Assembly (NCBI GenBank): GCA_014379585.1
Contig: JACMLN010000021.1
Coordinates: 1-41,683 of the forward strand
Length of the DNA stretch: 41,683 bases
Direction: 5' to 3'
From: Gloeobacterales cyanobacterium ES-bin-313
Lineage (GTDB): Bacteria > Cyanobacteriota > Cyanobacteriia > Gloeobacterales > Gloeobacteraceae
In this document: piece after piece, positions 37,935 to 40,770 of the stretch
How the letters are laid out: each line of letters opens with the position of its first letter
Numbering within the stretch: the first letter of the stretch is position 1
Made by a program: the position numbers and the translations under genes
The notes under the pieces: model-generated
Told to the model about the DNA's origin: nothing
What the model saw: only the letters and a program-made list of their open reading frames with translations
The model's database searches: none

Positions 37935-38435
37935 TTACTTTCTGCTGTCGTAGTACTCGCGGCTTAACATTGACATGAGGATTAACGACTCAAATGTTTT
38001 TCCATTCCATAAACATTCGCGCAGAAGTCCTTCTTCAACAAAACCGACTGAACTGTAAAGATGCCTTGCTCTTTGATTTTGTTCTTTGACATCTAACCAG
38101 AGTCGATGCATATCGAGTGTGATGAATGCCATGTCTTTGAGCAATTCGAGGGCTTCTCGACCAAAGCCTTTGCCTTTCTCAGTGATGACAATTTTACGAA
38201 ATTCTAAGCATCGGGACGGATCTTCCAGTCCACAAACGATCAGAAAACCAACCGAGCGTGGATCGTCCAGGGTTTCAATGATGCAATGAGCCATATTTGG
38301 ATTGGTCAGAGCGGTACAGTGCTGCTCGCGCGTCCCAGGCACAATGAAAACGAAGTTTTCTTGAATACGTTCAGCCGACAAGACAAAGTCTAGATCTGAC
38401 TCTGTGGTAGGCCGAAGTTGGATAGCTTTCAACAT
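37935..38435 (-). CDS. GNAT-family N-acetyltransferase
   Basis: 166 residues with the GNAT acetyl-CoA fold. IQLRPTTESDLDFVLSAE opens it. RKIVITEKGKGFGREALELLKDMAF carries the Q/R-x-x-G-x-G/A pyrophosphate loop (here EKGKGFGREA), and RLWLDVKEQNQRARHLYSSVGFVEEG is the RimJ/RimL-like C-terminal strand and helix. It transfers acetyl from acetyl-CoA to an amine; the substrate (protein N-terminus, antibiotic or metabolite) is unknown. The product is soluble. The next gene downstream on the minus strand lies outside the intergenic region, so it is probably monocistronic. Confidence 0.88.
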   Translation of the reverse strand: MLKAIQLRPTTESDLDFVLSAERIQENFVFIVPGTREQHCTALTNPNMAHCIIETLDDPRSVGFLIVCGLEDPSRCLEFRKIVITEKGKGFGREALELLKDMAFITLDMHRLWLDVKEQNQRARHLYSSVGFVEEGLLRECLWNGKTFESLILMSMLSREYYDSRK

Positions 38436-38487
38436 CGCTAGTTCCGGGTAAAGTAAACCACAGAACCATGATCTTCGATAAGAACAC

Positions 38488-38676
38488 TAAGGCACCATGG
38501 AGGTGCCAGCAGATCAAGGTGAAGGAATATACGATGCCGACAGGGTCAGAGACTTCGCTGAGGCTGGCTTTGCCACTGGTGAGTGGACGAAAACTTTCGA
38601 AGGTCATGTTGACCATCTTGCCGAAACCATCGTTGCTGGCTTGAAAGAGTTCGCCAACATCTTTAGCTGGGCGGGT
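38488..38676 (-). pseudogene. Truncated partial duplicate of rseP with an internal deletion
   Basis: Positions 38531-38670 align without gaps to 39971-40110 in the intact rseP gene (11 differences in 140 nt by my count). The stretch from 38488 to about 38530 matches the 3' end of rseP (39682-39725) with a 2-nt indel. The two parts are fused, so about 240 nt (roughly 82 codons) are deleted between VSGPVGIV and SFTLI. The minus-strand frame still reads MVNMTFESFRPLTSGKASL, then FTLICWHLHGALV. It has no active-site HELGH region and cannot be functional. An internal Met-led frame here is an artefact of the duplication. Confidence 0.85.
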
Positions 38677-38724
38677 AAAATAGCACTACAGAAATTCACT
38701 GCTTTTCCTGAGGAAGCGATTCTT

Positions 38725-39282
38725 ATGGTGCAAGCCTCCGCCAAATCATGGACTTTAGAAGCCTTTTTGCAACTGCCGGAAACAAAGCCAGCCAGTGAAT
38801 ATCTCGATGGTCAAATCATTCAAAAGCCCATGCCCCAAGGAAAACACAGTGCAATTCAAACAGAGCTTTCTGGGTTTATTAATAGGCATTTGAAGACCCA
38901 GCAAGTCGCTAGAGCGTTTTGTGAATTGCGCTGTACCTTCGGTGGGCGTTCGACGGTACCGGATATTGCTGTGTTTGAGTGGGAGCGCATTGTTCGCGAT
39001 GAAGATGGCACCATTGCGAACACGTTTAAGAGGGCACCTAACTGGACGATTAAAATTCTTTCTCCCGCACAAAGCCAAACCAAAGTCACGAAGAATATTT
39101 TGCACTGCCTTAGATACGGTACGCAGATGGGCTGGTTGATCGATCCTGCCGAAAAAACGGTATTTGTTTACTCGCCGAAGCGGGAGATTCAGGTTTTCGA
39201 TGAACCAACAGCGAAATTGCCGATCCCTTTTGCACTGTTGGAACTGTCTTTAGGTGATTTGTTTGGGTGGTTGCAGGAGTGA
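38725..39282 (+). CDS. Uma2-family (PD-(D/E)XK-like) protein, probably degenerate
   Basis: 185 residues from MVQASAKSWTLEAFLQLPE. A frame open from 38497 adds 76 codons, but these are antisense to the rseP remnant, so the internal ATG is the likely start. The Uma2 (DUF820) layout is visible: EYLDGQIIQKP, then PDIAVFEW, then NILHCLRYGTQMGWLIDP and VFVYSP. The family has a restriction-endonuclease-like fold and is abundant in cyanobacteria with no settled function. The usual PDWTIEILSP motif reads PNWTIKILSP here (D to N, E to K), so a predicted metal ligand is lost. The gene lies between the rseP fragment and intact rseP, surrounded by repeats. Confidence 0.85.
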   Translation: MVQASAKSWTLEAFLQLPETKPASEYLDGQIIQKPMPQGKHSAIQTELSGFINRHLKTQQVARAFCELRCTFGGRSTVPDIAVFEWERIVRDEDGTIANTFKRAPNWTIKILSPAQSQTKVTKNILHCLRYGTQMGWLIDPAEKTVFVYSPKREIQVFDEPTAKLPIPFALLELSLGDLFGWLQE

Positions 39283-39336
39283 AACTCAGTTTTGGACTTT
39301 TTGGTGGGTTGCGATAGATATGGCGAACGGCACCAA

Positions 39337-39359
39337 AGGGAAGGGGCGAGCCCCTCCCT
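39337..39359. repeat. GC-rich imperfect palindrome
   Basis: AGGGAAGGGGC and GCCCCTCCCT are inverted copies with one bulged A, separated by GA. It is the first of two adjacent hairpins downstream of the Uma2-family gene and may also act as that gene's terminator, although no T tract follows. Confidence 0.55.
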
Positions 39360-39374
39360 CTGGACTCCCACCCC

Positions 39375-39401
39375 GTGGGGGACAGACTGCCTGTCCCCCA
39401 C
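39375..39401. repeat. Perfect GC-rich hairpin
   Basis: GTGGGGGACAG and CTGTCCCCCAC form a perfect 11-bp inverted repeat around the 5-nt loop ACTGC. Its right arm and flank resemble the first bases of this window, which suggests a dispersed family. Confidence 0.7.
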
Positions 39402-39587
39402 ACCCCCTTGGCAACTTTTCGCCTGATAACCGTACCCATTCATGGCGCAACGCTGCCCAGGTTGCGGCGGGTCAGGTACGTGAGACGCCGAGTTTGAGAG
39501 TTTGATTGACATCCATCCAATCAAATTGGAAGAGTATGAGTGCCACGATATGGCAGAGGTTTTTTTGTTCTGTCTGACGTTTCGTCG

Positions 39588-39617
39588 TGTAGGGGCGCAG
39601 CATGCTACGCCTCTACA
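39588..39617. repeat. REP-like near-perfect palindrome
   Basis: TGTAGGGGCGCAGCA followed at once by TGCTACGCCTCTACA. The halves are inverted copies with two differences, both allowing G-T pairing. The core GGGGCGCAGCATGC resembles short palindromes scattered through cyanobacterial genomes. Confidence 0.7.
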
Positions 39618-39681
39618 TGTCGATGTCGATGTTAGTGGCGTTGATTTCTCAACGAAGAATCAACGGTTTTTAAATTGCCTG

Positions 39682-40770
39682 CTAAGGCACCATGGAGCCG
39701 CCATTGCGGATCAAGGTGAAGGAATCTTTGAAAATCAAGAGCAGAGCAAGACCAAGAAGAACGACGAGTCCCGTCTGCATCACTTTTTGCTGAATGTTGT
39801 TGGGGAGGGGTTTGCCACCACGCACTGCTTCGATCAACAAGAATGCCAAGTGGCCACCGTCGAGGGCAGGTAGGGGCAAGATGTTGATGAAGGCGAGGTT
39901 GATGGAGATCAAGACCGCAACTGTGAATAGGCTAGAGGCATCGGTCTCAGCTAAGTTCGCAGTCATCGCTACGATGCCGACAGGGCCAGAGACTTCGCTG
40001 AGGCTGGCTTTGCCACTGGTGAGCAAGCGGAAACTCTCGAAGGTCATGTTGACCATCTTACCGAAACCATCGTTGCTGGCTTGAAAGAGCTCGCCAACAT
40101 CTTTGGCAGGACGGCGGAAGTAGGTGCGGTTCGGTGTGAGAACAACGCCAATCTTGCCCTTGGCATCGGGGGTGAGGCTAAATTTCTGGTTGGTTTTGTC
40201 GCGCTGAACCGTTATGTCTAAAGGCTTACCAGCATTTGCCTCGATCACTTTTTTGAGGCGGTTTAAGTCGGCCTCACTACCCATCAACTTTTCGTTGCTG
40301 ACTGTCAAGATTACATCGTTGGGCTTGAGGCCAGCACGACTTGCAGCGGTGTTGGGGAAAACTTGGGGAATGGCGATACCAGGACGTTCGTTGACTTGGG
40401 GTACGCCAGCAAAGATCGACATGCCGAGGATAATCGCGTAGGCGAAGACCAAGTTGGCGATCACGCCAGCACTAATGACGATGGCACGGTCTAAAATTGG
40501 ACGGTTTTTGAGCAAGTCAGGATCGTCAGCGGGAATCTTACTCTCTGGATCGTCGTCAGGAAAGCCAACGTACCCGCCTAAGGGCAAGGCTGCGAGGACG
40601 AATTCAGTCTTTGGCCCTTGGTAGCGCAGGAGGGTCGGTCCAAAGCCGATGGAGAAACGGCTTACGCGGATTCCCTGAAGTCGGGCAGCCAAGAAGTGGC
40701 CAAGTTCGTGGACGACAATGAGCGCACCCAGTACACCGATGGCTGCAAGGACAGAGAGGATCTTAATCAC
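39682..40770 (-). CDS. rseP: RseP-type site-2 metalloprotease
   Basis: 362-residue inner-membrane zinc protease (M50B) that cuts transmembrane substrates, classically anti-sigma factors, in the membrane. TM1 carries the zinc motif H21-E-L-G-H25. The third zinc-ligand segment is NILPLPALDGGH in the C-terminal membrane core. A single PDZ domain lies at about 125-210 (PQVFPNTAASRAGLKPNDVILTV). LGGYVGFPDDDPESKIP and the MVNMTFESF segment are typical. The length matches cyanobacterial RseP/SppP proteases. A partial duplicate of this gene lies 1.4 kb away at 38488-38676. No ribosome-recycling or lipid genes accompany it here. Confidence 0.95.
   Translation of the reverse strand: MIKILSVLAAIGVLGALIVVHELGHFLAARLQGIRVSRFSIGFGPTLLRYQGPKTEFVLAALPLGGYVGFPDDDPESKIPADDPDLLKNRPILDRAIVISAGVIANLVFAYAIILGMSIFAGVPQVNERPGIAIPQVFPNTAASRAGLKPNDVILTVSNEKLMGSEADLNRLKKVIEANAGKPLDITVQRDKTNQKFSLTPDAKGKIGVVLTPNRTYFRRPAKDVGELFQASNDGFGKMVNMTFESFRLLTSGKASLSEVSGPVGIVAMTANLAETDASSLFTVAVLISINLAFINILPLPALDGGHLAFLLIEAVRGGKPLPNNIQQKVMQTGLVVLLGLALLLIFKDSFTLIRNGGSMVP

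Follow-up and report, generated by a model that had tools for sequence, protein, structure and literature searches.

A decaying partial copy of rseP beside a Uma2-family gene in a Gloeobacteraceae genome

The window, the 41.7-kb stretch of DNA analysed here (contig C175 in a draft assembly of 4.26 Mb and 198 contigs), was found to carry an intact rseP gene and, some 1.2 to 1.4 kb away in the same orientation, a decayed fragment of the 3' part of that gene. This arrangement is probably an ordinary partial duplication of rseP that is decaying beside an ordinary Uma2-family gene. The order of features on the window was GNAT gene, rseP fragment, Uma2 gene, 130-nt repeat, REP-like palindrome, intact rseP and WGR-domain gene (Table 1). 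Beyond its bearing on annotation, the duplication has little significance and would count as ordinary genome debris.

Table 1. Features of the region around the rseP fragment (positions on the window)
Feature	Position	Strand	Evidence or remark
GNAT acetyltransferase gene, flanking the rseP fragment	37935..38435	-	PF13302, E = 5e-10
Decayed second rseP 3' tail, reaching exactly to the stop codon	38487..38528	-	Aligned with 39682-39725
Spurious 76-codon extension of Uma2, running antisense through the rseP fragment	38497-38724	+	Similarity starts only at 38725
Decayed copy of rseP codons ~216-266, 154 nt	38530..38683	-	90% identical to 39970-40123
Block separating the two copies, with Uma2, repeats and noncoding DNA, 998 nt	38684..39681	.	
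Uma2-family gene, 185 aa from ATG 38725	38725..39282	+	PF05685, E = 8.5e-34
Copy of a dispersed two-hairpin repeat of ~130 nt, 16 nt past the Uma2 stop	39298..39428	+	At least 51 copies in the genome
REP-like palindrome GTAGGGGCGCAGCATGCTACGCCTCTAC, GTAG-headed	39588..39618	.	Sequence; related 28-nt copies elsewhere
Intact rseP, site-2 protease (M50 peptidase with PDZ domain), 362 aa	39682..40770	-	PF02163, E = 1.5e-60; PDZ domains
Part of intact rseP missing from the fragment, 244 nt	39726..39969	-	One base, 38529, in its place
WGR-domain gene	41073 onwards	+	

Extent of the rseP fragment and the neighbouring Uma2 gene

Homologous blocks were delimited by a repeat search and a MAFFT alignment. 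Two blocks of the fragment matched intact rseP, the larger with an E value of 1.3e-53 in a search within the genome. Direct repeats of 40 nt or more in the window were confined to the rseP duplication and to internal repeats of one sensor kinase gene; as the only long direct repeat besides those of the kinase gene, the larger block has a similarity far beyond chance. The smaller block, the 3' tail, comprises 42 nt against 44 nt in the intact gene, with three substitutions and a 2-nt deletion. Both outer boundaries were sharp, and identity between the copies dropped to 16/50 past the rseP stop codon and to 7/40 past positions 38683 and 40123. The homology covers only part of the nearby intact gene, as is expected of a partial duplicate. 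A preliminary description of this DNA had reported a second rseP copy of about 140 nt at about 92% identity plus the 3' tail of the gene, in the same orientation and with about 240 nt deleted between the two parts; the alignment of both regions bore this out, with a slightly longer and more diverged block and with a deletion of 244 nt, in whose place a single nucleotide stands. As a small correction, the fragment starts at 38487 and not at 38488.

The same description had placed a Uma2-family gene and three palindromes between the copies and had regarded the first 76 codons of the Uma2 reading frame as a false extension created by the fragment. All of these features were recovered: the gene was identified by its Pfam match, two of the palindromes proved to be the hairpins of a single 130-nt dispersed repeat, and the third was the REP-like palindrome. 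The PF05685 match extended over residues 87 to 242 of the long open reading frame and over profile positions 1 to 159 of 172, and hence over the whole domain. DNA similarity to other Uma2 genes set in at the ATG at 38725, with the Pfam domain starting ten residues further on; both begin downstream of the 76 codons, and the extension is therefore false. For annotation, this means that the start of Uma2 belongs at 38725 and not at 38497. Homologues in other cyanobacteria were 71 to 72% identical. The gene resembles other members of the family in its full-domain match, with no difference found at the sequence level, and is an ordinary multicopy cyanobacterial gene.

Divergence and decay of the fragment

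The intact protein aligned over its full length with RseP of other Gloeobacteraceae at 66 to 70% amino acid identity; those with names were from a MAG of Gloeobacterales and one of 'Aphanocapsa lilacina'. The closest relatives compared were five genomes of one family. A single full-length RseP match was present in the source genome and in one family member (G002). Four other family members (G001, G003, G004 and G005), which form one genus, probably Gloeobacter, had a second full-length paralogue with about 55% identity to the query.

Comparison with relatives was used to see on which copy the changes had fallen. The intact copy was nearer than the fragment to all 11 relatives (for example, 92 versus 85 and 100 versus 92 of 154 nt), and GC content was equal in both halves of the intact gene; on these two grounds the intact copy looks native. 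At five rseP positions that are invariant in Gloeobacteraceae (nt 654, 655, 665, 740 and 784), the fragment had the odd base and the intact copy agreed with the relatives. Two further sites, nt 659 and 680, showed the base of the fragment in most Gloeobacter sequences, and so the intact copy itself has probably changed there. Both copies have thus moved away from a shared ancestor, in the simplest case within the source lineage.

The decay of one copy, as had been proposed, was borne out by a divergence of about 10%, changes at conserved sites, the 244-nt internal deletion and a 2-nt frameshift. Such conserved-site changes, indels and frameshifts are those of a sequence under relaxed selection, and what is read on the minus strand across 38487-38683 is a pseudogene fragment. 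The same marks indicated that the duplication event was not recent.

Substitutions in the larger block fell at third versus other codon positions in a ratio of 11:5 (n = 16), and those in both blocks, tail included, in a ratio of 11:8 (n = 19). Purely neutral change predicts a proportion of one-third at third positions (P = 0.004 for 11/16 and 0.024 for 11/19), and one selected copy plus one free copy predicts a ratio of about 1:1 (P = 0.11 and 0.32, respectively). The pattern agrees with selection on one copy and none on the other. The excess in the larger block (11/16, P = 0.004) leaves room for a fragment whose divergence took place while it still had a function in another setting, such as a sister strain. 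As evidence for a foreign fragment, the third-position bias was undecisive because a bias is also expected with one selected copy; a foreign origin of the fragment, though possible, is not needed to account for it.

Copying of an rseP piece versus insertion at rseP

While the homology, its boundaries and the decay are observed directly, a copying event and its direction are inferred. Illegitimate recombination would have placed a copy of part of rseP, roughly codons 213 to 362, in a pre-existing spacer that separated the GNAT gene from Uma2, in the same orientation, and this copy would then have decayed without function through substitutions, the 244-nt internal deletion and a frameshift. The Uma2 gene and the 130-nt repeat would be separate from this duplication, neither of them belonging to a cassette that uses the end of rseP. 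The fragment, and not the block between the copies, lies between two direct copies of a 5-nt sequence, CACTA (38485-38489 and 38684-38688), which, as microhomology or a target duplication-like trace, weakly suggests insertion of the rseP piece next to Uma2. Homology of the tail begins at the CTA that it has in common with the left CACTA; this CTA is the rseP stop codon as read on the plus strand, which would account for an apparent end of the homology exactly at the stop. The repeat is short, which counts against this explanation; by our own rough estimate, a match of this type has a chance probability of about 4% when a few nucleotides of slack are allowed. In its short, truncated and decaying copy, in the same orientation near the intact gene, and in the short microhomology at its border, the window resembles partial gene duplicates that arise by microhomology-mediated recombination; no difference from these was found, with the mechanism here being the presumed part of the comparison. 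Among the relatives examined, none had a GNAT-Uma2 arrangement that lacked the fragment and none had rseP with the block missing, and the direction of copying is unproven.

The preliminary description had proposed that insertion or recombination at the 3' end of rseP duplicated the target, and that the segment could be a recently acquired cassette with the rseP end as its landing site. Partial duplication of the 3' end of rseP survived as an element of this history, but insertion of a cassette there was unsupported. A recent acquisition was not supported by a fragment with 10% divergence, altered conserved sites and indels, nor was any integrase linked to it. The landing-site proposal found no support in other cyanobacteria, in which Uma2 is not next to rseP: it was the immediate neighbour at 0 of 104 rseP loci and within reach at only 2, both times at a distance of about 2 kb or more. 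The rseP fragment was absent from five family members, none of them congeneric with the source, whose rseP neighbourhoods differed from that of the source genome and had no other tested gene in common with the window. When the whole block was compared with these five genomes, rseP and Uma2 matched separately and no synteny was shared.

Integration or recombination at the 3' part of rseP could still have brought in the Uma2 block, regenerated the gene end and displaced the original 3' end, although we consider this unlikely. Displacement of the original end is known for elements whose integration targets gene 3' ends, the model being e14 in icd of Escherichia coli. The window has a similar order of intact gene, intervening DNA and 3' fragment, the fragment has the orientation of the gene, and the homology stops at the stop codon; an excess at third positions would also be in line with a donor copy whose divergence occurred under selection. 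In contrast to e14 and similar elements, however, the intervening block measures just 1 kb and is without an integrase. No integrase or transposase domain was present in the tested open reading frames around the block, no integrase or target duplication bracketing 38684-39681 was found, and the window contig had no tyrosine recombinase, all PF00589 matches of the genome being on other contigs. The segment of homology would span about 440 nt and have its upstream end in the middle of the gene, and at that boundary (38683/40123) no att-like block of identity was detected beyond chance (7/40). The native appearance of the intact copy argues against its end having been regenerated, and the relatives do not share rseP as an insertion point. 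It is very unlikely that the block is what remains of an integrative element which enters the 3' part of rseP and rebuilds the gene end; if true, rseP would be an insertion point not recognised before in deep-branching cyanobacteria.

A longer tandem duplication that included rseP, followed by deletions that left the 3' part together with an inserted Uma2 gene, would agree with the same orientation and the short distance of the copies. This history seems rather improbable: nothing upstream of rseP (the WGR gene and the spacer) has a second copy in the block, and a genome search showed the rest of 38684-39681 to be single copy, dispersed repeats excepted. The GC content of this block was 49%, compared with 51% for the window. 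An assembly artefact or strain mixture, for which only the draft state of the genome speaks, is extremely unlikely, as misassembly would yield near-identical copies, whereas the copy here is 10% diverged, has lost an internal stretch and is cleanly bounded on both sides within a contig of 41.7 kb, and contamination was estimated at 1.5%.

A dispersed two-hairpin repeat behind Uma2

The result worth keeping from this region is a dispersed hairpin repeat family with compensatory changes in its stems. A 26-nt signature of the 130-nt repeat gave 51 matches in the genome and none for a reversed control, and no copy was present in the eight nearest genomes. Aligned copies were nearly identical. Overall, pairing was possible in 99.2% of cells, and three pairs changed on both sides, compared with 0 to 1 when the structures were slid by 1 to 3 columns as a control. 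Among 34 copies, one pair of the first hairpin was A-U in 29, C-G in 4 and U-A in the remaining 1. Where a long open reading frame (mechanical calls of 510 nt or more) ended within 100 nt upstream of a repeat, it ran in the same direction in 12 of 13 cases, indicating that the repeat lies mostly behind genes, like the copy behind Uma2; the gene on the far side was usually convergent. In an Rfam search of the region, the repeat was unmatched and the sole result was a chance miRNA match. No link between the repeat and the rseP duplication was shown, and the two are treated as independent.

The family resembles REP and BIME-type repeats in being dispersed, intergenic, hairpin forming and mostly next to the 3' ends of genes, and in the GTAG-headed palindromes near some of its copies. 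It differs from them in its conserved unit of about 130 nt with two hairpins, in the absence of an adjoining REP-associated transposase and in the lack of an Rfam match. Neither of the two Y1_Tnp genes of the genome (frames of 136 and 144 aa, IS200 sized) was flanked by 130-nt repeats. The 28-nt relatives of the REP-like palindrome adjoin two other copies of the 130-nt repeat (C106:192 and C42:3859). Related palindromes were located about 70 nt upstream of some copies (loci L152 and L169), compared with about 170 nt downstream in the window.

The other copies of the repeat lie in loci L144 to L182, and roughly a third of all copies were within about 200 nt of contig ends. At two contig ends (L160, C11:1-118, and L180, C63:24274-24373), tandem copies of its 5' part (ATGGCGAACGGCATTCAGAAAGAGTTTTGGTTGGGTGTTGTAAAT) were present, which suggests a longer array at which the assembly broke. 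The family seems modular, in that the downstream part comes in at least three alternative forms. The copy at C9:32471-32677 (L144) and that at 39298-39505 of the window share a 3' half, extending to about 39505, that is unlike that of most copies.
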